From Phycisphaerales bacterium (GTDB taxonomy: Bacteria > Planctomycetota > Phycisphaerae > Phycisphaerales > UBA1924): a stretch of DNA of 64,000 nucleotides. Numbering within the stretch: position 1 is the stretch's first letter; the number at the start of each line of letters is the position of its first letter. A program made the translations under genes and the position numbers. The notes under the pieces were generated by a model. It ran no database searches. It saw nothing but the letters and a program-made list of their open reading frames with translations, and had not been told where the DNA came from. This document shows positions 10,253 through 27,926 of this stretch, one piece after another. The stretch is taken from contig JAFIFZ010000040.1 in the NCBI GenBank assembly GCA_020831775.1, positions 1 through 64,000 on the forward strand, given 5' to 3'.

Positions 10253-12075
10253 AGCTCGCCTCCCCGCCGCGAGGTCAGCGTGTCGATGCTCCGCAGCAGT
10301 TCTTCGGCTTGTTTGGGGCTCGGCGGCTCGGCGTCCGTCGCCGGGGCGCTGCCCGTGTACCGCTGGGCCTCGCACGCAGCGAGCATGCCCCCGACCTCCG
10401 CTCCCAGCGATCGGCCCTCTGCGCCGGGGATCGCCCCGGCGATCAGCCGCCTGCAGTCGCTCTCGGTTACCGACGCGGGCTCGACCCCGAATCGCATGCC
10501 GACAAAGACACGGATCGCCTCGGCGACGCCCTCCGCCCCGGCTCTTCGTTTCATGGAGGCCCGCGCACGCCCCAGCGCCGTCGCCCGCCTGCGCACCGCC
10601 TCGCGAGAGGGCGAGCGGCTGTAGCGTGCTGCGGCCGCGCCCACGAGCAGCAGCGGGGGACCCCCGATCACCAGCAGCCACGCGAGGGCGGGCAGACGCT
10701 CCAGCGGATCCGGCGATTCGTTCACCAGCAATTCCGGGCCCGTGAAGTTCGCGCGGACGCCCCCTTCGCTGTCGATCAGCGGCGAGCGATCCGCGTCCGC
10801 CAGCGACACGCCCACCCCGTCGCGAGCCGTGACCTCGCGCACACGACGCACGCGGAGCGGGATCGCCTCGGCCTCTGCGACTCGGTACTCGCCAGCGCGC
10901 GGATCGAAATACGCGAGCCGCACGCCCGGGATCTCGGTAACGCGTTCATCCCTCGGACGCAGCGCGATCGCGTAGGTCCGCGAGCGGGGCGTCGCCGAAT
11001 CGAGCGCCCAGCCGTTCTCGGGGACCTTGAAGCCCGATGTGAACCGTTCGTCGATCGTCAGATCTGGCGGCGTGATCCGCGAAGCGGGCTCGCCAGCCTC
11101 GATTGTCAGGCGCAGGCGCACGGGCTCGCCGGCGCCCACCGAGTCGCGATCGGCCGCCGCAGAAACGCTCACCTCGCCCACGAGCCCGTAGAACGAGTCC
11201 GGCCTGTCGCGTTCGGGCAGGGGCAGCACTTCGAGTTCAACCGCGTCGGCCGCGCTCGACAGAGGCGTCCGCCCCGCCCCGATCTCCTGGCTTCTGAAGC
11301 GAACCGTGAGCGGGCCGAGGCGGTGACGCCCCGGCTCGTCGGCGACCAGCAGCCGCTCGACATCCAGCACGAACGCGGACTCGCCGCCGGGCGATTCGAT
11401 GCGACGGAGGGCCGCGAACCCGGGGCCGTCGAAGAGTTCCAGCCTGTGCGTGCGTTCGGCGTCGCGGAGCCAGCGATCGTCCTCGGGCGTCAGAAGCCGC
11501 AGGCCCTCGGGGGCGAGGTCGCCAGAAAACCGCGGGCGTTCGGGCGACATCGCGAGTGTCCAGCGCACCAGCAGCCGCACGGGCTCGCCAGCGAACACCC
11601 CCGTCCGTTCGGGCAGGATCTCCAGCCAAAACCCCTCGGGCGTCACCGGCTCGACCACATCGAGCGTTGTCGGCGGGACGCTCAGGGATCGCCCGGAGAC
11701 CTCGATCGTCGTCTCGGGAATCCTGAACCTTCCCGCCCGCTCTCCGGCGATCGTGTAAACAAACGAAACGCTTGGGAGCTGGCGCTCCACCCGGCGCCCG
11801 TGCACGATGTCGGAGACCCCGAAGCTGATCCGTCGGTCGCTGTCGAGCAACTGAAGACCCCGCGGCAGGCTCAGGCGGTGCTGCGGGGCATCGCTCGTCC
11901 CGACGATCTGGACAACAAGCTCGACCGGTTCGCCCACCTGCGCCGTCGCCTCCGACGCCCCGCGTTCGCCAAGCGAGACGCGCACGCTCGGCGGAACCTG
12001 CGCCATCGCGACGCCCGCCGGCGTGAGGAAGGCGAAGACAAGGCAGAGCAAACTCGGGAAGGATCGCAAAGTCAC
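10249..12075 (-). CDS. batD: BatD-like membrane protein
   Basis: A 608-residue protein with signal peptide (about 1-25, ending GVAMAQ) and repeated immunoglobulin-like beta domains typical of BatD (VSLGERGASEATAQVGEPVELVVQ is one such start, cited in part). A membrane helix lies near residues 465-485 (LAWLLVIGGPPLLLVGAAAA), followed by a cytoplasmic tail. BatD proteins belong to the Bacteroides aerotolerance family and sit with von Willebrand-domain partners in the membrane. The start overlaps the upstream stop by 4 nt and the stop overlaps the TTG of the next gene. Confidence 0.85.
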   Translation of the reverse strand: MTLRSFPSLLCLVFAFLTPAGVAMAQVPPSVRVSLGERGASEATAQVGEPVELVVQIVGTSDAPQHRLSLPRGLQLLDSDRRISFGVSDIVHGRRVERQLPSVSFVYTIAGERAGRFRIPETTIEVSGRSLSVPPTTLDVVEPVTPEGFWLEILPERTGVFAGEPVRLLVRWTLAMSPERPRFSGDLAPEGLRLLTPEDDRWLRDAERTHRLELFDGPGFAALRRIESPGGESAFVLDVERLLVADEPGRHRLGPLTVRFRSQEIGAGRTPLSSAADAVELEVLPLPERDRPDSFYGLVGEVSVSAAADRDSVGAGEPVRLRLTIEAGEPASRITPPDLTIDERFTSGFKVPENGWALDSATPRSRTYAIALRPRDERVTEIPGVRLAYFDPRAGEYRVAEAEAIPLRVRRVREVTARDGVGVSLADADRSPLIDSEGGVRANFTGPELLVNESPDPLERLPALAWLLVIGGPPLLLVGAAAARYSRSPSREAVRRRATALGRARASMKRRAGAEGVAEAIRVFVGMRFGVEPASVTESDCRRLIAGAIPGAEGRSLGAEVGGMLAACEAQRYTGSAPATDAEPPSPKQAEELLRSIDTLTSRRGGEL

Positions 12076-13943
12076 CAGTCACGCTCCGCCTGCGCCGGCC
12101 GCCCCAGCAGCGATCGCCGCTGGTACTCGCGGATGAGGTTCCGGTCGTGGCGTTCCTGTTCGAGGATCGCGTCGGTCACCGGGTCACGGCGCGGCGCATC
12201 AGAGGCGACCTCGCCCGCGTCGCGCATCCGTTCGGCGAGCTCTTGCATCGCTTCGAGCAGGCGCTCGTCCGGCCGCCGCTCGTCGGTCTCGCCCGACGGG
12301 TCGCTCGCGGCGAGCATCTGCTCTTCAGCCTCGGTCGGCGGCTCGGGCGTCTGTTCCGCCTGTCTCTGCAGTTCTCTGAGTTCGCGAGCGATCTCTTCCA
12401 TCTCCTCCGGGTCGCCGACAACGAACCCCGAGTCCATCGCACGCTCCATCGCGTCCTGTATCCGTTCCATCAGCTCCCGCGCACGCTCGACAAACTCCTG
12501 CGGATCGATGTCGGGCAGACCGCCCGGCTCTGTCTCTTCCTCTGTCGGCGCGGCGTCGGCAGGCTCGCCCGTCTCCGGCGTGGGCGTCTCCTGCAATGAC
12601 GGGTCGGGGCGCATCTCTTCTGAAGGGTCAGGCCGCGTCTCGGGGCCGAACTCGGGGTCAAACTCGGGCGGCGATTCGGGCCCCGCTCCGGTTTCCGGCT
12701 CAGGCCGGGGTTCAGACGCCTCGCCCGGCCGGGGCGATCGATCCTCAGCCGCTTCACCGCCCGGACCGGACGGCGGCTGTTCCCACGGCTGCGGCTCAAA
12801 CGCCGAATCCGCGCCGCCCTCGGTCTGGCGTTGGCCCGACTCGGGCTTGGGGGGCGGCCCGGGCGGGAGCTCAGACGGCCCCTGCTGCGGACGACCGGTG
12901 CGGTCCTGCTCAGCACCCGGCTCAACGGGCTGGGGTTGCCCCGGAGCGCCTTCGGGAGGGCCGGATTCGGGCGTGCCCTGAGGCGATCCTTGCGGCTGGT
13001 CCATCGGCCCGGCGGGCGCTGCGCCGGGAGCCGCTTCGCCATCGGCCGCGCTCTCGGGCGGCCCCTGCTGAGGCGCTCCCTCGGGCGGGGTTTGAGGCTC
13101 ATCCTCGCCCCTCTGGGCCTGGCCGGTCGGATCGGGTTGACCCGGCGCCGGCTGGCCTTCCTGCTGAACGCCTTCTTGCTCCGCGCCCTCGGCGCCGGGC
13201 TCGGGCGTCTCCGGCGATTCGGGCTCGGGCTGCTCATCTGCCTGCTCGTCGGGCTGTGTTTCGGCCTCAGGCTCGGGCAGATCGATGCGGTCGTCGAGGG
13301 GTTCCTCCTCGGGCTCTTGGGGCTGTCGCTCTTCTCGAGAGCGGTGCTGCTCCTCGATGCGTCGCGCCTGCTCCTCGGCCGCGAGTTCGTTCAGCTCACG
13401 ACGCAGCTCGAGCTGTTCGGCCACCAACCCCTCGGCGCGCCGGACGATCTCGATGTTCTTCAGCGTCCGCTCGTCGGGCGACATCCGGTACGACCCTCTG
13501 AACGCGCGGGCGCTGTCGCGCAAGAGCCGCATCGCTTCTTCGGGGCTGTCCTTGACCGTTTCGCGAGACCGCTCAAAGAGCACGACGCCGAGGTTGTACC
13601 TCGCCTTCGCCCGGAGCTCGTCGGACGCGCCCGCCCGATCGGCGTCGCGGAAGAGGTCGGCCGCGAGCGTCCGATCGCCACGCTCGAGCACCGCGATCCC
13701 CCGGTTGTAGATCGCCTGGGCGTTGGAGGGGTCGAGTTCGGAGGCCTGCTGGAACGCGACGGACGCCTCCTCTGGCAGGCCCTGCTTGAGCATCAGCTCG
13801 CCGCGGTGCATCAACTCGCCCGTCCGCTGCGCCGTCGCCTGGCCGGCGCACAGCACCAGCATCGCCGCGACGCCGATGCGCCGGCACGCCCCGGTCCGCA
13901 CGCCGGCGAACACCGAGCCAGAACTAGTTGCGTCGCGTCGCAC
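12072..13943 (-). CDS. TPR protein with very long Pro/Glu/Gln-rich region (BatC-like)
   Basis: A 623-residue protein with signal sequence (about 18-38) and at least three TPR-like helices (about 40-160: GELMLKQGLPEEASVAFQQASELDPSNAQAIYNRG, cited in part). A coiled-coil-prone stretch (about 165-200) follows, then about 270 residues of low-complexity Pro/Glu/Gln/Gly (about 215-480), then a helical C-terminus with EMEEIARELRELQRQAEQ. BatC of other bacteria has the TPR part only. The first codons overlap the end of batB by 20 nt. The low-complexity part may be a flexible periplasmic tether. Its boundaries are by eye. Confidence 0.75.
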   Translation of the reverse strand: MRRDATSSGSVFAGVRTGACRRIGVAAMLVLCAGQATAQRTGELMHRGELMLKQGLPEEASVAFQQASELDPSNAQAIYNRGIAVLERGDRTLAADLFRDADRAGASDELRAKARYNLGVVLFERSRETVKDSPEEAMRLLRDSARAFRGSYRMSPDERTLKNIEIVRRAEGLVAEQLELRRELNELAAEEQARRIEEQHRSREERQPQEPEEEPLDDRIDLPEPEAETQPDEQADEQPEPESPETPEPGAEGAEQEGVQQEGQPAPGQPDPTGQAQRGEDEPQTPPEGAPQQGPPESAADGEAAPGAAPAGPMDQPQGSPQGTPESGPPEGAPGQPQPVEPGAEQDRTGRPQQGPSELPPGPPPKPESGQRQTEGGADSAFEPQPWEQPPSGPGGEAAEDRSPRPGEASEPRPEPETGAGPESPPEFDPEFGPETRPDPSEEMRPDPSLQETPTPETGEPADAAPTEEETEPGGLPDIDPQEFVERARELMERIQDAMERAMDSGFVVGDPEEMEEIARELRELQRQAEQTPEPPTEAEEQMLAASDPSGETDERRPDERLLEAMQELAERMRDAGEVASDAPRRDPVTDAILEQERHDRNLIREYQRRSLLGRPAQAERDW

Positions 13944-14955
13944 CGATCAATCCTTCCAGCACCAGCAGCAGCAGGGCGGCGCCCACAAACCACTGGAACT
14001 TCTCTTCGTACTCTACGACCGTCAGATCGTCCGTCTCCGTCCCCCGCGCCCTCGTCACGATGTCGTTGTAGACCGAAGCGAGGTTCATCCGGTCGGTCGC
14101 GACATGGAAGTACGCGCCCCCGGGCGTCGCCCGGGCGATCCGCTCCATCGTCTCCCGCTCCAGGCGTGTGCGCACGGTCTCGCCCCGGAAGGTCAGCGGG
14201 CGCTCGAAGCCCGGCTCGCCGACCGGGATCGTCGCGCCCGCGGGGTCGCCCACGCCGATCGCGATGATGCGCACGCCCGCCTCGGCCGCCTCCTGCGCCG
14301 CCTCTTCGACGAACGAGTCTTGATCCTCGCCGTCGCTGATCAGGATGATGTCGCGGTACCGCCCCTCGGTGTTGTCGAACACTTCAGAGAGCGTCCGCCG
14401 GATCGCGTCGCCGATCTTCGTCCCGCCGACCGGCGCGATCTCCGGCGCCAGCCCCTCGACCTCGATATCCACAAAGCCGTAGTCCAGCGTCAGGGGAGAG
14501 AGCACCACGGGCACGCCCGCGAACGCGACCAGCCCGATCCGGTCACCCCGCGCCTCGCGGAGCACGCCGCTGATCTGCTCCTTCGCCCACTCCAGGCGGC
14601 TGGGCAGAAGGTCTCTCGCCTGCATGCTGCGCGAGACATCCACGAGGAAAACCACATCGCGCCCTGTACGCGTGATCGTCCGCTCGTGCTCGTTCCACTG
14701 CGGGCGGGCCAACGCGACGATGACGCACGCCATCGCCCCCAGCACGAGCACGCCCTTGACGACCGCCCTCGACGCCCCGCCTCCCGCGCTGATCCTCGCC
14801 TGCATCGACTTGTCCGCCAGGCGACGCAGCCGAAGCGAACGGACCACCAGCGCGCTGGCGAGGATCGCCGCGACCACCGGCAGCAGCCACAACGCCGCCA
14901 GCCACTGCGGCGAAGCGAAGCGTGCGCCCTCGAACATGCCGTCGAGTCCGATCAA
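13924..14955 (-). CDS. batB: BatB-like von Willebrand factor A protein
   Basis: A 343-residue membrane protein. Two N-terminal helices (about 18-38 and 67-84) are followed by a VWA domain with a complete MIDAS start, D106-V-S-R-S110, the mid-domain Thr in PVGGTKIGDAI and the Asp in ILISDGEDQD. A C-terminal helix (about 318-338) ends the protein. VWA domains bind partners through a divalent metal. It follows batA with a 4-nt overlap, the usual paired arrangement. Confidence 0.9.
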   Translation of the reverse strand: MIGLDGMFEGARFASPQWLAALWLLPVVAAILASALVVRSLRLRRLADKSMQARISAGGGASRAVVKGVLVLGAMACVIVALARPQWNEHERTITRTGRDVVFLVDVSRSMQARDLLPSRLEWAKEQISGVLREARGDRIGLVAFAGVPVVLSPLTLDYGFVDIEVEGLAPEIAPVGGTKIGDAIRRTLSEVFDNTEGRYRDIILISDGEDQDSFVEEAAQEAAEAGVRIIAIGVGDPAGATIPVGEPGFERPLTFRGETVRTRLERETMERIARATPGGAYFHVATDRMNLASVYNDIVTRARGTETDDLTVVEYEEKFQWFVGAALLLLVLEGLIGATRRN

Positions 14956-16034
14956 GGCAGCCTCCGGAGCAGCGTCCAGCCGATCGCGAGTTCAGCCGAG
15001 AGAAGCATCAGCGCCAGGTACGCCCATCGCTGGAAGCGCTCCTCGTACGCGCCGATCTCGCCCGTGTCGATGTCGGTCCGCTCCAGCGTGTCCAGCTCGC
15101 GGTAGATCTGGCGCAGCGTCTGGGCGTCCTGGGCGTTCCAATACCGCCCGCCCGAGAGCTCCGCCATCGCCCGGAGCTGGGCCTCGTCGATGTAGTCGCT
15201 GATGCGGATCCGAACGCCAGGCCGGTCGCCCGGGATCGTCACCCACCCGCCCGAGCCGCCCACGCCAACGGTGTACAGCTTGATCCCGCGGTCGGCCGAC
15301 ATCTGCGCCGCTTCCATCGGCAGCAGGCGTCCGCGGTTCTGCTCGCCGTCGGTCAGCAGCACGACCACCTTGCTGCGGATCACAAACTCCGGGGGCAGGC
15401 CCGCCTCGCCCCGCAAACGGTTGATGCGGTCGATGTCCTGCTCGGCCCGTTCGAGCTTGGCGACCGCCAGCGCCAACGCGTCGCCGATCGCGGTGCCGCC
15501 CAAAGGCTCGCGGGGCGGCGCCGGCTCGGTCCGCTGCGCCGCCTCGACCACCGCCTCGTGCGAGCGGCTCAGGGGCGCCGTCATCTCCGCAAACCCCGCG
15601 AACGAAAGCACACCCACCATGTCGCCCCTGCGCCCGACGATACCGGTGTCGTCGCCGAGCACAAAGTCGCCCAGCACATCCTTCACGACATCGAACCTCG
15701 TCGTGCGCCGCCCGCCGAAGTGCATCGGCGCCGTCATGCTCGCAGAACGGTCGATCACCAGCATGACCGCGATGCCCTCGGTCGAGAGCCGCGTCACGCC
15801 CAGGTCTTCGCGGGGGCGGGCCAGCGCCACGATCAGACACGCCGCGGCCCCGAGCCGCAGCGCCATCGGCAGCCAGCGGAGCCTCGTCCGCAGCCCCGGA
15901 CGCACCGTGCCCAAGAGGTCCAGCGACGAAAAGACCACAGCCGCGCGTCGCCGACGCGCAAGCGACCAGAGCACCGCGACCGGCAGGAGCGCCAGCAGCC
16001 ACAGCACACCGGGCTCAGCCATGTGCTCGATCAC
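14952..16034 (-). CDS. batA: BatA-like von Willebrand factor A protein
   Basis: A 360-residue membrane protein with helices near 9-25 and 57-73, a VWA domain (MIDAS D95-R-S97-A-S99, Thr in LGGTAIGDAL, Asp in VVLLTDGEQNRG) and a C-terminal helix (about 335-355). Its organisation mirrors the next gene, batB, consistent with an old duplication and a BatA-BatB pair in the membrane. It overlaps its neighbours by 4 nt on each side. Confidence 0.9.
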   Translation of the reverse strand: MIEHMAEPGVLWLLALLPVAVLWSLARRRRAAVVFSSLDLLGTVRPGLRTRLRWLPMALRLGAAACLIVALARPREDLGVTRLSTEGIAVMLVIDRSASMTAPMHFGGRRTTRFDVVKDVLGDFVLGDDTGIVGRRGDMVGVLSFAGFAEMTAPLSRSHEAVVEAAQRTEPAPPREPLGGTAIGDALALAVAKLERAEQDIDRINRLRGEAGLPPEFVIRSKVVVLLTDGEQNRGRLLPMEAAQMSADRGIKLYTVGVGGSGGWVTIPGDRPGVRIRISDYIDEAQLRAMAELSGGRYWNAQDAQTLRQIYRELDTLERTDIDTGEIGAYEERFQRWAYLALMLLSAELAIGWTLLRRLP

Positions 16035-17089
16035 GCCTTGACCTCCCCGCCAGGCCCCGCACCGCTCTGCATCTCCATCACAACCATGTCCGACGCGGCC
16101 TTGATCCGCCCGAGCACCGCTTCCAGATCGTCGAGCATCGCGAGCGTGCGCTCGCGCGTCGCCTTCTCGCCCGCGTAGCGAACGCGGTCGATCTCGCGCA
16201 GCAAATCGGCCAGCCGGTCCCGGTCCCGCGCCGTAAGCCCGAACCAGCCCGATGAGCGTTTGACCATTTCTTCGTGCTCAAGCTGCTCGGCGCCGGGTTC
16301 GAGCCGCTCGCTCACGCAGCGGGCGAACAGATCGCTCGCCTCGTCCCAGAGACCGGGCAGGTTGTCGCTCTCGCTCGCCCTTCGGCGCATCCGGTCGATG
16401 CGCGAGGGCAGGCGGTCCAGCACGCTCCGCGTCGTCCGACGCGTCAGCAGCACCATCGCCAGGATCGCTCCCGCCAGCAGCACCAAAATCCCCGCCAAGG
16501 CGTACGCCATCGTCCGCACCCACGGGAAGGGCGGCGGCGCTTCCCACGCCGACAAGCCCCGGGCCTCGCCGACCTCAAGCTCCGCCCGCTCGCCCCCGTC
16601 GTCGAGCACAGAGACAACGCGGTACGGGACCGAAGCGATCGAGAGCGTTTCTTCCGACCCATCGGGACCGCGCAGCACGAACGAAAGCGGGGGGGTCGCG
16701 TGCTCGCCCGGCAGCGGCGGCTCAAGCGTCAGCGTGCGCTCGATCACGATCCACGCCCCGTCGTCGCCCTCATCGAGCCTCGGAGAACTGCGAGCCGCCC
16801 CGATCGCCTCCAGCCCCGCGTCGCGCCACAGCCTCGCCCAGCCGTCCTCCTCGCCCCGCGGTTGGATCTCCAACGCCGCGGGCTCCAGCAGCACCCAACC
16901 GGGCCGGACACGCGAGACGACCCGAACCTCCAGATCGTCGGCCAGGGTGAGTTCGGCCGGGTGCAGGCTCTTGAAGATCTCCGCATCGCCGGAAACAACG
17001 CGAGATGACGATGGCCCCGCGCCGCTCGGTGCGCCCGCCGCAACAGCGGCCAGCCCCGCCATCAAGATCGCGGCCAGCAACAACCTCAT
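16031..17089 (-). CDS. Bat-operon membrane protein with BatD-like extracellular domain
   Basis: A 352-residue protein with signal peptide (MRLLLAAILMAGLAAVAAGA), an extracellular beta domain of about 140 residues, one membrane helix (about 173-197, MAYALAGILVLLAGAILAM) and a cytoplasmic helical tail. It occupies the slot between DUF58 and batA where many Bat operons carry a DUF4381-type or BatD-like gene. The ATG at 17089 overlaps the stop of the DUF58 gene (ATGA) and gives the signal peptide; the frame is open further upstream but inside that gene. The exact family is uncertain. Confidence 0.7.
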   Translation of the reverse strand: MRLLLAAILMAGLAAVAAGAPSGAGPSSSRVVSGDAEIFKSLHPAELTLADDLEVRVVSRVRPGWVLLEPAALEIQPRGEEDGWARLWRDAGLEAIGAARSSPRLDEGDDGAWIVIERTLTLEPPLPGEHATPPLSFVLRGPDGSEETLSIASVPYRVVSVLDDGGERAELEVGEARGLSAWEAPPPFPWVRTMAYALAGILVLLAGAILAMVLLTRRTTRSVLDRLPSRIDRMRRRASESDNLPGLWDEASDLFARCVSERLEPGAEQLEHEEMVKRSSGWFGLTARDRDRLADLLREIDRVRYAGEKATRERTLAMLDDLEAVLGRIKAASDMVVMEMQSGAGPGGEVKA

Positions 17090-17973
17090 CGGCGTGACCT
17101 CGCGCGGAAGTGCTTCGACAGCGGATCGATCGCGGGGGTGTCGGTCGTGATGTCCACCAGCGAGGCGCCGGCGCTCATGAACGCGCTGTCGGTCTCGATC
17201 CTCCGCCGACGCCACTCTTCCTTGTACCGCTTGGAGGCCGATCGTCCGAGGTCCAGCACGCGCTGCCTGCCGGTCTCCGCGTCGCGCAGCCGGATCAGCC
17301 CGACGCGGGGAAGCGTCCGCTCTTTCGGATCCTCCACGCGGACCGCCGTCACCTCGTGCCTGCGCGAGAGCCGGTTGAGCGCCGACTTGTACGACTCCGT
17401 CGGCGCAAGAAAATCGCTGATCAGAAACACCATCGCCCGGCGTTTGCGAACCGCGCCGAGAAACCGGATCGCCGCGTCGATGTCCGTCCCACGCCCCGCG
17501 GCCTTGTGAAAACGCAGCGCACGCTCGATCCGCAGCCGGTGCTGGCGGCTCTTGCCCGGCGGGATGTACAGCTCCGCCCGGTCGGAAAACAGCAGCAGCC
17601 CCACGCGGTCGTGCGAGCGCCCGGCCGCAGATGCGAGCAGCGACGCGACCTCCGCCGCCGCCTCGCGCTTGGGCCGCCCCGCCGTGCCGAAACTCTCTGA
17701 GGCGCTGATGTCCACCAGCAGCATCACCGTCAGACGCCGCTCTTCGACAAACCTCTTGACGAACGGCGTGCCCGTCCTGGCCGTCACATTCCAGTCGATC
17801 GATCGCACATCGTCGCCCGGCTCGTACGCCCGCACCTCTGCGAACTCCAGCCCCTCGCCTTTGTACGCCGAGAGATAGCTCCCCGCGAGCATCTCCTCAA
17901 CGCGGCGTCTTGGGCGGAAGCGCAGCTGGCGCACACGCCCCGCCCCGACCGGACTCTGGATCTCTTCGCTCAC
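17086..17973 (-). CDS. DUF58 protein
   Basis: A 295-residue cytoplasmic protein of the DUF58 family, regularly encoded with MoxR ATPases. The hallmark GDDVRSIDWNVTARTGTPFV (about residues 53-72) is present, followed by a VWA-like fold with VMLLVDISASES. DUF58 proteins probably act as substrates or adaptors of MoxR. The start overlaps the moxR stop by 4 nt. Some members are longer and have N-terminal membrane helices; this one has none. Confidence 0.92.
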   Translation of the reverse strand: MSEEIQSPVGAGRVRQLRFRPRRRVEEMLAGSYLSAYKGEGLEFAEVRAYEPGDDVRSIDWNVTARTGTPFVKRFVEERRLTVMLLVDISASESFGTAGRPKREAAAEVASLLASAAGRSHDRVGLLLFSDRAELYIPPGKSRQHRLRIERALRFHKAAGRGTDIDAAIRFLGAVRKRRAMVFLISDFLAPTESYKSALNRLSRRHEVTAVRVEDPKERTLPRVGLIRLRDAETGRQRVLDLGRSASKRYKEEWRRRRIETDSAFMSAGASLVDITTDTPAIDPLSKHFRARSRR

Positions 17974-18992
17974 GGCACGGGCACCTTGTCGAGCACGCGA
18001 CGCACGATGTCGTCGGGCAAGACCTCTTCGGCCATCGCCTCGTAGCTCACGATCACGCGGTGACGCATCACATCCGGCGCGATCGCCTTCACATCCCCGG
18101 GCGTCACAAACGCCCGCCCCTGCATGAACGCGTGCGCACGACCCGCGATCGCCAGCGCGATCGAGGCCCGGGGCGACGCCCCGAACTCGATGTACCGCTC
18201 CAGCTTCTCCAGCCCGAACAGCGACGGCTCACGCGTCGTGCGCACAAGATCGACGATGTAGTCACGCACCCGCTCGTCGAGGTGGATCTTGTCGACCACC
18301 GTCCGAGCCGCGCCGATCTCCTCGACATCGATCACCGCCTCGACATTCACAGGCGGGCGGCTGGAGGCCATCCGGTCGATGATCTCCCGCTCCTCGGTCT
18401 TGCTCGGGTAGTCGATCGTCAGCTTGAGCATGAAGCGGTCGACCTGCGCCTCGGGGAGCTGATAAGTCCCTTCCAGCTCGATCGGGTTCTGCGTCGCCAG
18501 AACCAGGAACGGCTCCTGCAGCGGGTAGGTCGTGTCCCCGATCGTCACGCTCCGCTCCTGCATCGCCTCCAGCAGCGCCGACTGCACCTTCGCGGGTGCG
18601 CGGTTGATCTCGTCGGCCAGCAGGATGTTCGCGAAGATCGGGCCCTTGCGGGGCGTAAACTCGCCGCTCTTGGGGTCGTAGATCAGCGTGCCGATCAGGT
18701 CCGCCGGCAAGAGGTCCGGCGTGAACTGGATGCGGTTGAACTTCGCGTGGATCGTCCTCGCCAGCGTGCTGACCGTCAGCGTCTTGGCCAGCCCCGGCAC
18801 GCCCTCCAGCAGCACATGGCCACCGGTCAGCATCCCGATCAGCAGGCGTTCGACCATCGGCCGCTGCCCGACGACCACCCGCTCGACCGAATCGAGCAGA
18901 CGCCGCAACAGCTCGCTGTGCGAGGCGACTTCCTGCTCAAGCTCCGCCGAGACGCCCCGCCCGCCCGACACGACCGCCGTTTGATCACCCAT
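17970..18992 (-). CDS. moxR: MoxR-family AAA+ ATPase
   Basis: A 340-residue AAA+ ATPase that heads the Bat operon. Walker A is GVPGLAKT (residues 64-71), Walker B with sensor context is ILLADEINRAPAKVQSALLE, and the MoxR signature FTPDLLPADLIGT is present. MoxR proteins are chaperone-like and help mature or insert VWA proteins. An AGGAGG site 10 nt upstream supports the ATG at 18992. All downstream genes to 9440 overlap one another, so this promoter probably drives eight genes. Confidence 0.95.
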   Translation of the reverse strand: MGDQTAVVSGGRGVSAELEQEVASHSELLRRLLDSVERVVVGQRPMVERLLIGMLTGGHVLLEGVPGLAKTLTVSTLARTIHAKFNRIQFTPDLLPADLIGTLIYDPKSGEFTPRKGPIFANILLADEINRAPAKVQSALLEAMQERSVTIGDTTYPLQEPFLVLATQNPIELEGTYQLPEAQVDRFMLKLTIDYPSKTEEREIIDRMASSRPPVNVEAVIDVEEIGAARTVVDKIHLDERVRDYIVDLVRTTREPSLFGLEKLERYIEFGASPRASIALAIAGRAHAFMQGRAFVTPGDVKAIAPDVMRHRVIVSYEAMAEEVLPDDIVRRVLDKVPVP

Positions 18993-19198: not shown

Positions 19199-21256
19199 TC
19201 ATCGGGCCGCGTTGTGCATCGCGACATCGATCCAGGCCTCGCTCTTGGCCGCCTCCGCCCGCCGCACGGCCAATCGACCGCTCGCCGTCCGCTGGGCCAC
19301 GGGCCAGAGCAACGCCGCGGAGATCCGCCGAAGCGGCCCCGGTGAGAGCCTGCACAGGACCGTCAGGGGCTCAAACCCGAATTCCTTGATCAGCGCGTCC
19401 TCCAGCGAAACAAAGGTCTCCGCCCGCCCCGGGTCCCCCTGACGCCCCGCACGCCCGTAGAGCTGGCGGTCGACCCGGCGCTCGTCGTTCCGCTCCGTCG
19501 CGATCACCACCAGCCCGCCGAGCTTCCGCGTCTCTTCGTCCAGCGTGATGTCCGTCCCGCGTCCGGCCATGTTCGTCGCCACAGTCACCGACCCCGCCCG
19601 CCCCGCCTGCGCGACGATCTCAGCCTCTTCGGCCTCGCGCGTCGCGTTCAAAATACGGCACTCCACGCCCCGTTCCTGCAGATACGTGCCCAGCCGCTCC
19701 GAATCGCTCACGCTCCGCGAGCCCACCAACACCGGCGAGCCCTTCTCGTTCAGCTCGGCGACCCTCGCCGCGACGGCCCGGAACTTCGCTTCTTCGGTCG
19801 AGTAGACCTTGTCGCGGGTCTGCTTGCGGATGACGGGTTTGTGCGTCGGGATCCGGACCACCGGCAGGCGATAGTCGCGCCACAGCTCATCAGCGACCTC
19901 CCAGACCGTCCCGCTCATCCCGCTCAGCCGCCGGTACTGCTGGAAAAACTGCTGGTAGCTGATGCGAGCACTGGTGCTCCGATCGCCCGAGATTTTCAGC
20001 CCCTCCTTGGCCTCGACCGCCTGATGCACGCCGAGCTGCCACCGCCGCCCGACCAGCAGACGCCCCGTCGAGCGGTCGACGATCGTCACTTCTCCGTCTC
20101 GCGCGAGATAGTCCCGCCCGAGCAGATAGAGCTCCCTCGCCTTGACCGCGAGCTGCACCAGTTCTTCGCGACGCCGGGGCCCGCTCCAGAAGGGGGGCAG
20201 GCCCTCGGCCGCCTTCGCCACCTTCTCACGCCCCGCCGAGGTCAGCCGCACCCTCTTGAGCCGGCGGTCGACCGTGAAGTCCTTGCCCTCGGTCATCAGC
20301 GAGGCGATCTGCGCCGCGACCTGGTGCGCCTCGGCCCCCGCCCCCTCAAGCTCGGTGTCGGCGCCGATGATCGCCGGCGTCACCGCCTCGTCGATCAGCA
20401 CGCTGTCCGCCTCGTCGACGATCGCCGAATACTGCCCTCGCTGCACCACCGCGTCGCGCCAGTGCGGCTCGGCGCTCTCGCCGAAACGCCCGGGCTCGAA
20501 GAGCTCGTCCATCAGCAAGGGCCCGAGCCTCGGCTGCACCGGGCCGACCAGCCTGTCGCGCAGGAAATCGAAGATCGCCTGCTTGTCGGCCATGTAGGTG
20601 ATGTCGCGCCGGTACGCCTCCGCCCGCTCCTCGGGCTTGCTCTGATCGGTCAGCACGCCGACCCGCAGCCCCATCAGCGAATACGCGGGGCCCGTCGTCT
20701 CCGCGTCGCGCCGGGCGAGGTAGTCGTTGACGGTCATCACATGCACGCCACGCCCCATCCACCCGTCGATCGTCGCGGGCAGGATCGCCGTGACCGTCTT
20801 GCCCTCGCCTGTCGCCAGTTCGGCGCAGCACCCGTCGGCCATGACCAACGCGCCCATCACCTGCTCGGGGTGCAGCAAAAACCCCTGCGTGCGCCGCACC
20901 GCCTCGACACAGAGCGCGTACGCCCGGTCGACCGCCGACGCGTCGTCGCGCGAAAGCCTGACCGCGCCGCGAGCCTCGCGCACGCGCTCGAAAAACCCCT
21001 CGTCGCCCAAATCCGCGGCCGCTCGCGCGTCTTCGAGAATCCTGCCCGCCCTCGCCGCCAGTTTCCGCCCGGCTTTCCGCCGCCCGGCCACGCCCCGCGC
21101 CCGCTCGGCGATCGCGTCCAGACCTTTCAGAGGCAATCGTCGCTTCGTGCGCCCGGCGAGCCCGGGCCACAAGCGGGCAGAGGGCGAGTTCCCACGCGAC
21201 CCGTCGAGCAGCGCGTCGAGCCTTCTCCCTGAAAACCGTTCGGCCAGATCGCTCAT
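19199..21256 (-). CDS. SecA-like ATPase lacking the C-terminal scaffold (SecA2-type)
   Basis: A 685-residue SecA relative; housekeeping SecA has about 850-950 residues. NBD1 has ATGEGKT (148-154) and DEAD (281-284, DEADSVLIDEA). A preprotein-crosslinking region follows, and NBD2 carries VATNMAGRGTDI and QLYGRAGRQGDPG. It ends about 65 residues later, so the helical scaffold/wing domains and zinc-binding tail that contact SecYEG, SecB and lipids are missing. The first 100 residues also differ from canonical SecA. The start overlaps the stop of the PqqD/M50/HlyD gene by 4 nt, so it is translationally coupled to an HlyD-type membrane protein. I infer a specialised export motor; the substrate is unknown. 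Confidence 0.88.
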   Translation of the reverse strand: MSDLAERFSGRRLDALLDGSRGNSPSARLWPGLAGRTKRRLPLKGLDAIAERARGVAGRRKAGRKLAARAGRILEDARAAADLGDEGFFERVREARGAVRLSRDDASAVDRAYALCVEAVRRTQGFLLHPEQVMGALVMADGCCAELATGEGKTVTAILPATIDGWMGRGVHVMTVNDYLARRDAETTGPAYSLMGLRVGVLTDQSKPEERAEAYRRDITYMADKQAIFDFLRDRLVGPVQPRLGPLLMDELFEPGRFGESAEPHWRDAVVQRGQYSAIVDEADSVLIDEAVTPAIIGADTELEGAGAEAHQVAAQIASLMTEGKDFTVDRRLKRVRLTSAGREKVAKAAEGLPPFWSGPRRREELVQLAVKARELYLLGRDYLARDGEVTIVDRSTGRLLVGRRWQLGVHQAVEAKEGLKISGDRSTSARISYQQFFQQYRRLSGMSGTVWEVADELWRDYRLPVVRIPTHKPVIRKQTRDKVYSTEEAKFRAVAARVAELNEKGSPVLVGSRSVSDSERLGTYLQERGVECRILNATREAEEAEIVAQAGRAGSVTVATNMAGRGTDITLDEETRKLGGLVVIATERNDERRVDRQLYGRAGRQGDPGRAETFVSLEDALIKEFGFEPLTVLCRLSPGPLRRISAALLWPVAQRTASGRLAVRRAEAAKSEAWIDVAMHNAAR

Positions 21257-23487
21257 ACCCCGAACCTGCCGGTGAGATACTGCCTCGCCTTGCGGAGCAC
21301 CTGGCGCCCGATCGACGCCTCCGGCGCCGAGAACCGCACACGCACGCGCTGCCCGGGCTGGAGCGTGTCGCGTTCGGCCTCGGGGCGGACGATCACCGTC
21401 GCGTAGCGGTAGACCGTCCGCTGACCCTCGGGGTCGTTGGGGTCCAGCAGGATCTCGCCGCCGTAGCGCGTCGTCAGTGTCGGGTTGCTCACCGTCGCGG
21501 CGGCCACCGGCGACATGCTGCTGGCGCGCGCTGGGATCGCATCGAACGCCCTGCCCCGCACGCGGATCGTCGCGGGCACCGTCACGATCTCCTCGTCGGT
21601 CCCCCTGAAGACATACGCCCGCTCACGGTCGCTGATCTCGGCCCTGACGACCAGCTCGTCGGCGGTCATCACCATCGCCATCAGCGTGCCCCGCTGGACA
21701 TACCGCCCCACGAGGTGCTCGCCCGTCCCCGCCCCTCCGAGGGCGACATACTGCCCGTCGATCGGCGAACGCACCGTCAGCCGCTCGATGCGGCCCGCGA
21801 GCTGCTCGGCGCGCTCTTGCAGTGTGCGGATCTGGTTCTGCGCCGCCTCCGCCTCCGCGGGCGACTTCTCCGTCGCCTTGGCGAAAGTCAGCCTCGCGCG
21901 ATCCAGGCGTGCGAGCGTCTGCTCATACTCAGAAACAAGCTCGGCGTTCTGCAGCACGAACACCGGGTCGCCCGCCTCCAGCTCCTGCCCAGAACGCGCC
22001 TGGATCTGCGTGATAAACCCGTTCTCCCCTGCCCGCAGCGCCGCCCGGTTCACCGGCTCCAGCACGCCCGAGGCCGTCGACCCCGAACGCACAGGCACCA
22101 GCCCGATCAACGAGAACAACAGCCCCAAAAACACGGCGCACACGCCCACCGCCCGCACCCGACGCCCGACCAGCTTCGGCGAGCTCGCCAGGTGCCCGAT
22201 CCCCTTGAGCACCGGCCAGACGAACATCACGCTGATCAGCACGATCGCCAGGATGATGCCCAGCGCCGCGTACTGCGACGCGATCAGCAGCACGATGCTC
22301 AGTCCGATCAGGATGCGGTAGGGGGGCGCCATCACCCCGTACACGCCCAGCAGCCACGCCTCTTTCCGGTCCCGCACGCGAGGCGCCCGCAGCCCCTTCA
22401 CGCCGTACGCCAGCCGGTGCAGCAGGTAGCTCCAGAACTCCTTGGCCCGGTGGGCCAGGTTCGGCGAGCCGCTGATATCGCTGAGGATGTAGTACCCGTC
22501 GTAACGCAGCAGCGGGTTCATGTTGAAGATCAGCGTCGTCACGCCGCTGATCACGATCACATTAAACGCCAGGGCGTGCGTCAGCGTCGCCGGGTCGACC
22601 GTCAGCCAGACGAAGACCGCAATCGACGCGACCACCAGCTCGACCATCATCCCCGCCGCCGAAACCAGCACCCGCCGCCAGACCTCGGGGAACCGCCACG
22701 CGCTCGTCGCGTCGCAGTAGGGCAAAGGCAGCACGCCGCCGATCATGATCACGCCGATCTCGGTGCAGCGCCCGCCCATCGCCTTGCAGGCCGTCGCGTG
22801 CCCGAGCTCGTGGATCGCCCGGATGAACATGAACAAAACGCCCAGCCAGACGAGGTTCGCAGGGTCCAGGAAGTTGTTAAACCCGTCCCCGAGCTTCCGC
22901 CAGTTGGACAGAAACGCAAAGAGCGCGCTGCCCACCAAGAGCAGCCACACCACCAGCCCGATCTTCGAATACAAGGGCTTGTACAGGTGCTTCGTCCGCT
23001 CCAGCCAGCGCTCGGGGTTGATCAGCGGCACATTGAAGAAGATGAACTTGCCTGTCCGCTTCTGGAACCGCTCGCTCTTGCTCTGGCGGTGGCGCTCGGC
23101 CAAGATCTCAGGCGTCAACGGGTCAGCGCCCAGCAGCAGCCCGAACTTCTGGAGCTGCGCCAGAAGGTCGACGCACTCACGCTGCGTCGGCGCCGCGTCG
23201 CCGAGCTGGGCGCACGCCGCCTCCCACGCCTCGTCGACCGTCCGCGTCCCGTCGAGCATCCCGAGGAAGAAGTACGCCGCCTCCGTCAGTCGGTAGTAGT
23301 GGCCCGAGGCGGGGTCCTCGACCACATACGCGATCTCGGGCCCGAACTGCTGGCGGATCACCTGCGCGTGCGGGCTCACCTTCGGGCGCTTGTCCGCCAC
23401 GCGGTGCCAACGCTCGCTGAACGAGGGCTCGGGATCCTGTCTGAGCAGTTCGAACGCCACGCGTCCTCCATGTCCGTCGATGTTCAT
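21253..23487 (-). CDS. PqqD-like domain / M50 metalloprotease / HlyD fusion membrane protein
   Basis: A 744-residue protein with three parts. Residues about 38-120 look like a PqqD/RiPP-recognition fold: YYRLTEAAYFFLGMLDG, TVDEAWEAACAQ, then ECVDLLAQLQKFGLLLG. Next is a multi-helix M50 (site-2 protease) core with HELGH at 226-230 and the second-site motif NMNPLLRYDGYY. The C-terminal third (about 490-744) is an HlyD/membrane-fusion region (AGENGFITQIQARSGQELEAGDPVF, cited in part; RLTVRSPIDGQYV). ATG 23487 is preferred because the open frame upstream overlaps the preceding gene by 56 nt. It stops 4 nt inside the SecA-like gene. Related M50-HlyD fusions occur in planctomycetes without an assigned function. 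Confidence 0.85.
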   Translation of the reverse strand: MNIDGHGGRVAFELLRQDPEPSFSERWHRVADKRPKVSPHAQVIRQQFGPEIAYVVEDPASGHYYRLTEAAYFFLGMLDGTRTVDEAWEAACAQLGDAAPTQRECVDLLAQLQKFGLLLGADPLTPEILAERHRQSKSERFQKRTGKFIFFNVPLINPERWLERTKHLYKPLYSKIGLVVWLLLVGSALFAFLSNWRKLGDGFNNFLDPANLVWLGVLFMFIRAIHELGHATACKAMGGRCTEIGVIMIGGVLPLPYCDATSAWRFPEVWRRVLVSAAGMMVELVVASIAVFVWLTVDPATLTHALAFNVIVISGVTTLIFNMNPLLRYDGYYILSDISGSPNLAHRAKEFWSYLLHRLAYGVKGLRAPRVRDRKEAWLLGVYGVMAPPYRILIGLSIVLLIASQYAALGIILAIVLISVMFVWPVLKGIGHLASSPKLVGRRVRAVGVCAVFLGLLFSLIGLVPVRSGSTASGVLEPVNRAALRAGENGFITQIQARSGQELEAGDPVFVLQNAELVSEYEQTLARLDRARLTFAKATEKSPAEAEAAQNQIRTLQERAEQLAGRIERLTVRSPIDGQYVALGGAGTGEHLVGRYVQRGTLMAMVMTADELVVRAEISDRERAYVFRGTDEEIVTVPATIRVRGRAFDAIPARASSMSPVAAATVSNPTLTTRYGGEILLDPNDPEGQRTVYRYATVIVRPEAERDTLQPGQRVRVRFSAPEASIGRQVLRKARQYLTGRFGV

Positions 23488-23521
23488 CCGCGAAGGCGTG
23501 CGCCCCGCACCGGTGGGGGGC

Positions 23522-25474
23522 TTACCACCACAGCCGCAGGCGCAGCTCGTCGGCCATCGGCCCGAACAACGCGCCAAGAGCCGTCGTCCGCCCGGCTCTC
23601 AGGCGCGCGATCCCCGTCTCGCCCGCTCTCAGCCAGTCCAACGCGTCCCCGCCACGCTCGAGGATCGACGCCTCCACCCGGTACACATTCCCGCCACCTT
23701 CAGGCTCGGCGACCGGGTTGATCCGAACCACCTCGATCCCCACGCGGTCCTCCGGCCTCGCACGGCTGGAGAGCTTCCCCTCCTGTCCGCGGTGCACCAT
23801 CCCGATGTCCCGCTCGTCCACAAGCAGCACCACCACCCGCTCGCGACCCACAACCTCGAACAAAGGCTGCGATGGATCGATCACCGCCCCCACATAGTCC
23901 TGCAGATCACCGCGGCTCACAGTCCCCGCGATCGGCGACCGGATCTCCGCCCGCCGCAGGCGGTCACGCATCAGCGCGATCGACGCCTCGAGCTCCCGGA
24001 TCTGCAGGTCCGCCGCCTCGGCGTTCACCTCGTCCCGCCCCAGGGTCGCGTCCCGCTGCAAGGCCAAACTCGCCCGCCTCGCGAGCAGCTCGTCGAGCTC
24101 CAGGATCACCGGCCCGGTCTCCATCTGCGCGAGCAGATCGCCCTCGGCGACCACATCCCCCGGACGCACCAGCACATCCTCAAGCACGCCCGTGAACGGG
24201 GGCACAATCGTCCGGGCGACAGAAGACTTGAGCTCCGCGTCCGCCGTCACCCGCTTGGGGATCGGCACGAGCGCCCCGGCCGCAAAGACGATGAAGATCA
24301 GCAGACAGATCAGCTTCACGAGGGTGTGCCTCGGGCCGACGATCGTCGAGCCGACCTCCAGCGTGCGGTCCTTCATCACCGCAAGAACACCCCGGTCCGC
24401 CAGCCGCCTCGTCCAGAGCGCCGGGCCGACAAACTCGGCGACCAGCCGCAGGAGCGGGATCGCCGCGGGCGGGAACGGATCGGCCGCCTCGCGTTCCATC
24501 GTCACCACGCCGACCAGGTCGCCGTCGACACGCAGGGGCAGGCTGATGATCGACGACGGCCCGTACTTCTGGCTCAGGCGGTCGTGCGCTCGGCTGACGC
24601 GGCGCTGCTCGGGGTCGGTCGCCGCCTCGGGGGGCTCGGGGTAGAGCACCTCGATGTCCTGCAGGGCGCACTCCTCCATCGCGGCCTCGATCGCCTCGGA
24701 CGCGGGCCCCTTCTTGTCGAGATCCTCCGACCCGCTGATCGCCGCGAGCTTGAGCACCGCCGCGGGGCCCTGGATCAGTCCGATCGAGACCCTGGTGCAG
24801 CCGAAGCGGCGCCGGATCTCGTGGCACATGAGCGAGCCCATCGTCCGCGCGTCGGCGCCCTGCTGCGAGGCGTCGAGCAGTTCGAGCGTCTCGCGGAGCA
24901 GCACACGGTGCTGCGCCTCGCTCATCGCGTGCTGACGCCACAGGAACGCCTCGAAGCGCGCGCCCATCAGCGCCAGCAGCTCCAGCGCCCGCTCGCCGGG
25001 CACCGACGCCCCAGCCGGCATCACCATCACGCTGGCGCCCTCGACACGGCCGTCGGCGACCAGGGGCGTCGCCAGCACGCGGTGCACCGGCTCGGCCCCG
25101 TAGAGCGCCCCCGGGGTCTCCACCGTCACGGTGTCGACGCGACCGGCGACCTGCGAGTCCGCCTGGCGGGGCGAGGCGACCACCTCGCCGGCGATCTTCT
25201 CAAGACGCTGCAGCGCAGGTCCGCGGAAGAGGTCGGGCAGGTCGCCCGGGGCCCCCGCCTCGGGCCAGCGCACAAAGAGACCGGCCCGGCGTTGAGCCGA
25301 GCCGGCCAGAAAAACTCCGCCCGCGACAGCACCCACGAGCTCGGCCTGAGCCCGCACCAGTTCACCGAGGAAGCCCCGGAGTTCGGCGACGCGATCGCTC
25401 TGGGGGGCGAGGTTCGCCGGCTGATGCTCGGCCGCGGGCAGCGCGGCCCCTTGGCTCGTGGATCCGGTGCTCAT
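23522..25474 (-). CDS. GAF-domain / HlyD membrane-fusion protein
   Basis: A 650-residue protein. The first 190 residues are helical and may be a degenerate GAF domain; a GAF-like domain follows (about 195-370: RRRFGCTRVSIGLIQGPAAV; SSIISLPLRVDGDLVGVVTMER, cited in part). Then comes one membrane helix (about 388-410, LVKLICLLIFIVFAAGALVP), a biotinyl-lipoyl/HlyD part with a coiled-coil hairpin (PPFTGVLEDVLVRPGDVVAEGDLL, cited in part; RSPIAGTVSRGD) and beta domains to the end. The layout puts a sensory domain in the cytoplasm and an adaptor outside. It lies 34 nt upstream of the M50 fusion and is probably its partner. Confidence 0.85.
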   Translation of the reverse strand: MSTGSTSQGAALPAAEHQPANLAPQSDRVAELRGFLGELVRAQAELVGAVAGGVFLAGSAQRRAGLFVRWPEAGAPGDLPDLFRGPALQRLEKIAGEVVASPRQADSQVAGRVDTVTVETPGALYGAEPVHRVLATPLVADGRVEGASVMVMPAGASVPGERALELLALMGARFEAFLWRQHAMSEAQHRVLLRETLELLDASQQGADARTMGSLMCHEIRRRFGCTRVSIGLIQGPAAVLKLAAISGSEDLDKKGPASEAIEAAMEECALQDIEVLYPEPPEAATDPEQRRVSRAHDRLSQKYGPSSIISLPLRVDGDLVGVVTMEREAADPFPPAAIPLLRLVAEFVGPALWTRRLADRGVLAVMKDRTLEVGSTIVGPRHTLVKLICLLIFIVFAAGALVPIPKRVTADAELKSSVARTIVPPFTGVLEDVLVRPGDVVAEGDLLAQMETGPVILELDELLARRASLALQRDATLGRDEVNAEAADLQIRELEASIALMRDRLRRAEIRSPIAGTVSRGDLQDYVGAVIDPSQPLFEVVGRERVVVLLVDERDIGMVHRGQEGKLSSRARPEDRVGIEVVRINPVAEPEGGGNVYRVEASILERGGDALDWLRAGETGIARLRAGRTTALGALFGPMADELRLRLWW

Positions 25475-25535
25475 CGTCGCTGGGCTCTCGATAGGGGGGC
25501 CTGCCCGGTCCCCCCCTCGGGACTATTCAAAAAGA

Positions 25536-25901
25536 TCAGTCGTCGGCCAGACGGGGGCCGGGGGTGGCGCCGCCGCCGGTCCCGGGCTGGGGCTGACGCT
25601 GCAGCTGGATCTCGCCGTTGCGCTCCTCGTACTGGCGGATGACCTGCCCGAGGCTGATCGCCAGGCGCTTGGCGCCGACCCAGTTCATGATGACGCGGCT
25701 CCCGATCGAGAACAGCAGTGCCTGCTGCCCGTCGGGGTTCTGCATCGGGAGGTTCATCCCGAAGTCCATGACCACCTCGTCGGCGGTGGTGGAGGTCCGG
25801 ATGGTGTTCGAATAGGTGGAGTGCATCTTGCTTTCGTCGATCCGGAGCTGGATCTGACGCTGCTGCCCCTGCGCACCCTGCTGCTCGCCGCCCTCGGCCA
25901 T
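25536..25901 (-). CDS. DUF3467 protein
   Basis: A 121-residue soluble protein with the DUF3467 pattern: YSNTIRTSTTADEVVMDFG, then VIMNWVGAKRLAISLGQVIRQYEERNG (cited in part), and a Gln/Gly/Pro-rich end. The family has no known function. ATG 25901 is chosen because GAGGAAGG lies 9 nt upstream; a TTG at 25910 would sit too close to it. It ends 61 nt before the GAF-HlyD gene on the same strand and may be the first gene of the export cluster. Confidence 0.8.
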   Translation of the reverse strand: MAEGGEQQGAQGQQRQIQLRIDESKMHSTYSNTIRTSTTADEVVMDFGMNLPMQNPDGQQALLFSIGSRVIMNWVGAKRLAISLGQVIRQYEERNGEIQLQRQPQPGTGGGATPGPRLADD

Positions 25902-26528: not shown

Positions 26529-27926
26529 ATGTCCGATCCGGCGACCAAAGAAACGACCAACACCATCCGCGTCGAGGACGCCGGCCCCAGCCGCAAGAGG
26601 CTGGTCATCGAGATCCCGGCCGAAGCGGTCGACGAGAAGCTCGACGAGTCGATCCTGACGCTCGCCTCTGAGGCGGAGCTCCCGGGCTTCCGCAAGGGCC
26701 GCGCCCCGCGCGCCCTCGTCCAGAAGCGGTTCGGCGAGGCGGTCCGCAACGAAGCCAAGAACGCGCTGGTCGCCAGCGCCTACCAGGAGGCGGTCGAGGA
26801 GCACAAGCTCAAGGTCGTCGGCGACCCGATCAGCGACGAGCTGCCCGACCTCGTGCTCGAGCCGGGCAAGCCCCTGAGCGTCAGCATCGACATCGAGGTC
26901 GCGCCCGAGTTCACCATGCCCGAGATCGAGGGCATCGAGATCCTCAAGCCCGAGTTCGAGGTCTCCGACGAGATGGTCGCCACCGAGGTCGAGAAGATCT
27001 GCATCAACGAGGGCGACCTCGAAGAGCGCGAGACACCCGAGCCCGGCGACTACCTCACCGGCCACGGCATCATGCGCGGCACGCCCGCTGGCGGCTCGGA
27101 AGAGAAAGAGTTCTACAACATCCCCGGCGCCGTCGTCCAGGTCCCGCCCCCCGACAAGGAGGGCAAGGGCATGGTCCTCGGCGTCATGGTCGATGACTTC
27201 GCCAAGCAGCTCGGCCTGCCCAAGCCCGGCGAGACCGTCACCATCAAGGTCAAGGGCCCCGACAACCACGAGGTCGAGGACATCCGCGGCGCCGACCTCA
27301 CCGTCACCTTCGAGGTCGACCGCGTCGACCGCATCATCCCCGCCGAGCTGAACACGGTCGTCGACCGCTACGGCTTCCAGTTCGCCGATGAGCTCCGGGA
27401 GACGGTCCGCACCCGCCTCAAGCAGCGGGCCATCATCCGCCAGCAGGTCGCGATGCGCCAGCAGATCGCCGACTACCTCGTCGAGCACACCGAGGTCGAG
27501 CTGCCCGAGCGCCTCACCGCCGGCCAGGCCACACGCACGCTCGACCGGCGCCGCATGGAGCTCGCCTACCGCGGCGTGCCCGAGAACGAGATCGAGGAGC
27601 ACATCGCCGAGCTCCGGGCCGCCTCTGACAAGAGCGCCGTCCGCGAGCTGAAGCTCTTCTTCATCCTCAACCAGATCGCCGACGACCTGGATGTCACGGT
27701 GACCGAGGGCGAGATGAACGGGCGCATCGCCCAGCTCGCCTCCGAGCAGGGCGTCCGCCCCGAGAAGCTCCGCCAGGACCTGATCCGCCGCAACCGCGTC
27801 GGCCAGATCTTCAGCCAGATCCGCGAGCACAAGGCGATGGACGAACTGGTCAAGAAGGCCAAGGTCACCGACATCTCCGCAGACGATTTCGCCGAGAAGA
27901 TGAAGTCCAAGCAGAAGGACGCCTGA
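26529..27926 (+). CDS. tig: Trigger factor
   Basis: A 465-residue ribosome-associated chaperone that binds nascent chains at the exit tunnel. The signature loop GFRKGRAPRALVQKRFGEAV (about residues 57-76) matches the ribosome-binding GFRxGxxP motif. A central divergent PPIase-like domain (about 165-265) and helical C-terminal arms follow. The start at 26529 has a GGGAGAA site upstream; the frame is open further upstream but begins the wrong fold. A TAGACT at 26437-26442 may be the -10. A strong terminator follows directly, so the gene is monocistronic; the usual clpP/clpX neighbours are absent. Confidence 0.95.
   Translation: MSDPATKETTNTIRVEDAGPSRKRLVIEIPAEAVDEKLDESILTLASEAELPGFRKGRAPRALVQKRFGEAVRNEAKNALVASAYQEAVEEHKLKVVGDPISDELPDLVLEPGKPLSVSIDIEVAPEFTMPEIEGIEILKPEFEVSDEMVATEVEKICINEGDLEERETPEPGDYLTGHGIMRGTPAGGSEEKEFYNIPGAVVQVPPPDKEGKGMVLGVMVDDFAKQLGLPKPGETVTIKVKGPDNHEVEDIRGADLTVTFEVDRVDRIIPAELNTVVDRYGFQFADELRETVRTRLKQRAIIRQQVAMRQQIADYLVEHTEVELPERLTAGQATRTLDRRRMELAYRGVPENEIEEHIAELRAASDKSAVRELKLFFILNQIADDLDVTVTEGEMNGRIAQLASEQGVRPEKLRQDLIRRNRVGQIFSQIREHKAMDELVKKAKVTDISADDFAEKMKSKQKDA

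Follow-up and report, generated by a model that had tools for sequence, protein, structure and literature searches.

A conserved operon for a short SecA-like ATPase and a PqqD-M50-HlyD membrane protein: probable export of LEPR-XLL proteins

An operon of four genes was analysed in a stretch of 64,000 nucleotides from a Phycisphaerales bacterium (GenBank assembly GCA_020831775.1, contig JAFIFZ010000040.1, positions 1 to 64,000; here called the window). It probably encodes a dedicated exporter of large to giant proteins, surface or secreted, that bear a LEPR-XLL tag at the N-terminus; this tag would be bound and cut, with the export driven by a SecA-like ATPase. The assignment of LEPR-XLL proteins as the putative substrate is well supported by co-occurrence and by gene neighbourhood.

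The locus itself is already known. Kamneva, Poudel and Ward (2015; PMC4452313) reported SecA_DEAD without SW domain, M50-HlyD, GAF-HlyD, HlyD and sometimes OEP, termed the locus T1SS-related, and proposed SecA as the ATPase and M50 as the pore; no substrate is given and the role is called "completely unknown". The sections covered here make no mention of PqqD, DUF3467 or LEPR-XLL. The window operon agrees with this secondary SecA_DEAD locus in its SecA without wing and scaffold and in the adjoining genes for M50-HlyD and GAF-HlyD. New are the link to LEPR-XLL cargo with its statistical specificity, the PqqD domain with its homology to a leader peptidase, and DUF3467 as a frequent member, with the proviso that later work may exist elsewhere.

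The operon and its proteins

The four genes (Table 1) are real; a chance origin is ruled out, since the gene set is kept across dozens of genomes. The genes for the SecA-like and the M50 protein share 4 nt (21253-21256); the best start of the latter is the ATG at 23487, and its open frame extends to a TTG at 23577.

Table 1. Genes of the operon in the window
Feature	Positions	Strand	Basis
SecA-like ATPase, short, 685 aa	19199-21256	minus	Pfam, conserved motifs
PqqD + site-2 protease (HELGH ... NPLLRYDGY) + periplasmic HlyD adaptor, single membrane protein	21253-23487	minus	Pfam, alignment, AlphaFold model
GAF-HlyD: GAF region at the N-terminus, a single transmembrane segment, HlyD adaptor at the C-terminus	23522-25474	minus	Pfam
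DUF3467 small protein	25536-25901	minus	Pfam 7e-18

Besides a canonical SecA of about 1425 aa, the genome encodes two short SecA-like proteins, which share 41% identity and have one operon each. A third adaptor, i.e., a separate HlyD/RND-type membrane-fusion protein with signal peptide, belongs to the conserved set; its gene is not beside the window operon and adjoins the paralogous operon on contig C47, near which a LEPR protein of 758 aa is also encoded. Neither a LEPR gene nor TolC was found beside the window operon; LEPR proteins are encoded elsewhere in this genome. Divergent from the operon lies a gene judged by eye to be trigger factor-like (26529-27926, plus strand), as in two genomes of the same genus (L061, L062). 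Downstream of the SecA-like gene, a Bat-like operon with MoxR AAA ATPase, DUF58 and more genes (9440-18992, minus strand) is likely unrelated.

The SecA-like protein gave Pfam matches to SecA_DEAD (2e-77), P-loop_SecA (4e-56) and SecA_PP_bind (5e-22), and none to SecA_SW. Like canonical SecA, it possesses NBD1 with the PPXD, NBD2 and intact ATPase motifs; unlike canonical SecA, it ends about 50 residues after NBD2, in a segment similar to the beginning of the scaffold helix, and the remaining scaffold, the two-helix finger, the wing and the C-terminal linker are missing. With the NCBIfam model secA it reached 526 bits, versus a cut-off of 800. The Walker and helicase motifs GEGKT, DEADSVLIDEA and GRAGRQGDPG were invariant or nearly so among 22 relatives, and HExxH was present in 23 of 23 M50 proteins; both enzymes therefore look active, as judged from their motifs. 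Three loci (L039, L040, L041) encode a different short SecA-like protein (626-627 aa); its neighbours there are cysteine-desulfurase-like and HlyD-like, and a PqqD-M50 gene is missing.

The M50 protein matched PqqD (PF05402, E = 1.1e-8, 35.6 bits versus a curated cut-off of 23.4), Peptidase_M50 (3e-8) and HlyD domains. Alignment of relatives showed that the metal-binding motif NPLLR[YF]DGY is kept as well. In the AlphaFold model (mean pLDDT 87.9), residues 42-114 form strands and then three helices, as expected for PqqD, followed by a membrane domain with long helices, and the C-terminal half gave fold matches to the adaptors MacA, MexA and AcrA. The PqqD and M50 half matched the model of the daptide leader peptidase, NF041824, over nearly the whole length (1e-48), and its 166 bits versus a member cut-off of 300 indicate a relative, not a member.

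The GAF-HlyD protein was identified by matches to GAF (1.6e-11) and HlyD_3 (2e-14). DUF3467 often, though not always, comes first in the operon, and its model (pLDDT 86.7) has a compact beta-beta-beta-alpha fold, for which a comparison with PDB folds yielded no significant match (best E 0.095, none of them SecB). A role as SecB-like chaperone was considered and is not supported, as a sequence match was lacking as well.

A GAF domain together with a site-2 protease core might also be expected in a signalling module, where sensing would lead to proteolytic release of a regulator and export would be incidental. No anti-sigma/sigma or other regulator partner was conserved in the neighbourhoods, and the presence of three HlyD adaptors along with a SecA motor agrees with transport; a signalling function is very improbable.

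Of 61 genomes of the order, 50 encoded one or more SecA-like proteins in addition to canonical SecA, and the other 11 encoded none. The common order in about 40 loci was (adaptor), (DUF3467), GAF-HlyD, PqqD-M50-HlyD, SecA-like, and neither a SecY homologue nor an ABC transporter recurred in this conserved gene set. A scan of species genomes, with genes called by a self-trained gene caller, yielded 80 named loci in Alpha-, Beta- and Gammaproteobacteria, Desulfobacterota, Nitrospirota, Omnitrophota and Rokubacteria; most keep the same gene order, and in many a very large gene adjoins. On alphaproteobacterial plasmids, where the M50 relatives are full-length, a giant gene is followed by DUF3467, GAF-HlyD, PqqD-M50-HlyD, SecA-like, adaptor and, in one case, TolC. 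TolC beside the operon was clear in L098, with weaker matches in a few other loci. A gene of the SapC family, seen within or next to the operon in L097 (16269-17090) and in 17 more proteobacterial loci, may encode an accessory component.

The original prediction for this DNA had described a SecA relative without C-terminal scaffold, overlapping by 4 nt a gene for a combined PqqD-like, HELGH site-2 protease and HlyD protein, with GAF-HlyD upstream and DUF3467 before it. All these features were found, the PqqD assignment agreed with both profile and model, and the proposal that the genes form a single unit holds in related genomes and in other phyla.

Association with LEPR-XLL proteins

LEPR-XLL (NF012209) is an N-terminal motif model of 24 positions. 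In a sample of 246 genomes from the phylum, the PqqD-M50-HlyD protein was present in 25 of the 26 genomes with LEPR-XLL over the cut-off, compared to 55 of all 246 (Fisher p = 6e-18); when the window's order was left out, 16 of 17 LEPR genomes possessed it (p = 2e-12). Within the order, LEPR (E <= 0.03) was detected in 41 of the 50 operon-bearing genomes and in none of the 11 others (p = 4e-7). Among 274 genomes of Gammaproteobacteria, the M50 protein was found in 16 of 18 LEPR genomes (E <= 1e-3; p = 1e-14). Fisher tests ignore shared ancestry; the association repeats in separate, unrelated phyla. When genomes were picked by the M50 protein alone, 45 of 49 contained LEPR-XLL. All 12 high-scoring M50 proteins checked were accompanied by a short SecA-like protein, mostly encoded next to the M50 gene; a lower-scoring M50-HlyD group in Gammaproteobacteria came from genomes with canonical SecA only or no match, and here LEPR was rare.

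The gene neighbourhood points in the same direction. By agreement of coordinates, a LEPR gene on the same strand lies beside the operon in 35 of 48 named loci, usually as a frame of 4,600-14,400 aa, and two giant plasmid genes (31.8 and 38.8 kb) directly upstream of the operon are annotated "LEPR-XLL domain-containing protein".

Exceptions exist on both sides. LEPR-XLL without the system was noted in G222, G422, G559 (C57:21725, a frame of 7,373 aa) and the control genome Deinobacterium chartae. Conversely, LEPR over the cut-off was absent from 9 of the 50 operon-bearing genomes of the order and from 30 of the 55 in the phylum sample, and only some of these can be explained by variant tags or by another M50 subfamily. 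PF07595 (Planc_extracel) was tried as a second tag model and proved too weak (20 positions, 4 of 246 genomes over the cut-off).

The relationship of PqqD+M50 to the daptide protease model could suggest maturation and export of small ribosomal peptides. The neighbourhoods examined contained no peptide-modifying enzymes and no recurring small precursor genes, and what recurs beside the operon is a giant protein whose tag is conserved; small peptides as cargo would thus be extremely improbable.

The tag and the giant proteins

In 37 sequences a basic stretch, with a median net charge of +6 over 45 residues, precedes the tag PhiE-x-LEPR-x-LLS[AG]D. Conservation counts are biased at the positions used for picking the sequences; at positions independent of the regular expression they were 37/37 for E/D at -2, 36/37 for S at +7, 37/37 for A/G at +8 and 33/37 for D at +9. 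The median hydrophobicity of 1.35 (11-residue window) falls between that of a cytosolic control (0.75) and that of signal-peptide adaptors (2.32), and the tag therefore differs from a typical Sec signal.

The LEPR model probably covers only part of the functional tag, since apparent exceptions carry variants: large proteins adjoining planctomycete SecA-like genes in genomes with weak LEPR start with LEDRTLLSA, LETRSMLAGD or similar sequences (LEDR/LETR/LESR), and the LEPR-negative deltaproteobacterial locus L151 has LEARLLFSAD. Both LEPR-XLL and Planc_extracel are already known as short N-terminal motifs of large proteins, which are here proposed as the tag of the operon's system; the open-licence literature searched assigns no exporter to LEPR-XLL, and later work elsewhere is possible.

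Most proteobacterial cargo candidates are single giant proteins of about 5,000-14,000 residues, often with RTX repeats, as would be expected of proteins which fold outside the cell. Several of the giants from L115, L119, L136, L156 and L164 have an I[DN]W motif close to the C-terminal end and a C-terminal M10-like segment, LLSVL.HELGH..GLEH, for which L119 gave a Peptidase_M10 match of 8.5e-5.

An ordinary type I secretion system could perhaps export the LEPR giants via a C-terminal signal, so that the operon would merely trim, retain or quality-control the N-terminus. RTX repeats, typical of T1SS cargo, were present in 5 of 6 giant C-terminal regions tested, HlyD- and TolC-type parts are common to both systems, and G559 possesses LEPR and T1SS ABC transporters without a short SecA. 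Yet none of the repeats was at the extreme C-terminus, and models of T1SS C-terminal targets gave no match in the regions tested. In the gammaproteobacterial sample, the canonical T1SS transporter showed almost no association with LEPR, unlike the M50 protein: the ABC transporter LssB was over the cut-off in 4 of 18 LEPR genomes (p = 0.43), and at E <= 1e-100, a threshold that admits other T1SS-like ABC proteins as well, matches occurred in 11 of these 18 genomes (p = 0.047). No LssB-type match at this threshold was obtained in seven LEPR genomes, among them some with frames of 8,000-14,000 aa. Export by an ordinary T1SS is therefore unlikely.

Proposed mode of export and known systems

The following sequence of events would account for export by the operon. 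The PqqD domain may bind the LEPR-XLL tag and the site-2 protease core may cut within LLS[AG] or immediately behind it; both steps are suggested by homology of PqqD+M50 to MpaP of daptides, described as an RRE-dependent intramembrane leader peptidase which removes the leader (PMC10036551). The two proteins share a PqqD/RRE domain fused to a site-2 protease, whereas the M50 protein here has an additional HlyD domain and, as partners, a SecA-like protein and adaptors instead of peptide-modifying enzymes. The sequence L-D-P in the daptide leader resembles L-E-P in the tag, which may be coincidence.

The short SecA-like ATPase would then push the unfolded chain, by homology to SecA. In canonical SecA the two-helix finger is thought to move the polypeptide chain, and its absence here is a counterpoint to the role as motor. 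Candidates for the inner-membrane pore are the M50 membrane domain, GAF-HlyD or a borrowed SecYEG. To carry the cargo out, the M50 protein and GAF-HlyD could act through their periplasmic HlyD domains, together with the separate adaptor and a TolC-type outer-membrane channel; that TolC genes adjoin the operon at only a few loci is a further counterpoint. The GAF domain may gate export.

SecA2 systems of Gram-positive bacteria serve in the export of large adhesins. Similarly, the SecA-like protein could be an accessory motor feeding SecYEG, with HlyD and M50 acting only after the inner membrane has been crossed. Its core is clearly SecA with ATPase motifs kept, and no dedicated pore is obvious in the operon. 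On the other hand, the gene set has no recurring SecY homologue, wing and scaffold, which provide the contact to SecYEG, are missing, and the tag is weakly hydrophobic compared to Sec signal peptides, which makes this arrangement quite improbable. Accessory Sec with SecA2/SecY2 resembles the present system in using a second SecA for large surface proteins, and differs from it by a much longer SecA, the presence of SecY2, and other partners and phyla.

Type I secretion (HlyB-HlyD-TolC) shares with the operon the HlyD adaptors, TolC at some loci and giant cargo of RTX type; it differs by its ABC transporter, which is not part of the conserved set, by a C-terminal instead of an N-terminal tag, and by lacking a SecA-like motor and a membrane protease. 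A separate type of secretion can be put forward tentatively, with arguments in nearly even balance: a motor derived from SecA, using neither SecYEG nor an ABC transporter, would cooperate with a peptide-recognition domain and an intramembrane protease, and giant proteins would be exported from the cytoplasm to the outside in one step, the LEPR-XLL tag being cut off.

Recognition, cutting and export, as the original prediction had suggested, remains the best reading, since the genes co-occur as a unit, PqqD passes its cut-off, and PqqD and protease are homologous to the daptide leader peptidase. The small precursor peptides which that prediction implied near the cluster did not recur, and large or giant LEPR-XLL proteins take their place as probable cargo. 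Its statement that no known secretion type has this set needs correction, since the locus was described in 2015 as T1SS-related (PMC4452313).

Two loose ends are joined by the proposed link, namely a widespread secretion-like locus without cargo and a widespread N-terminal motif of giant proteins without exporter; the cargo of the 2015 locus can now be named and tested. If true, the system would account for the export of giant adhesin-like proteins by planctomycetes and many Proteobacteria, a SecA motor would work without the usual parts for translocation, and a module for recognition and cutting of leaders, as in RiPPs, would be used on giant proteins.
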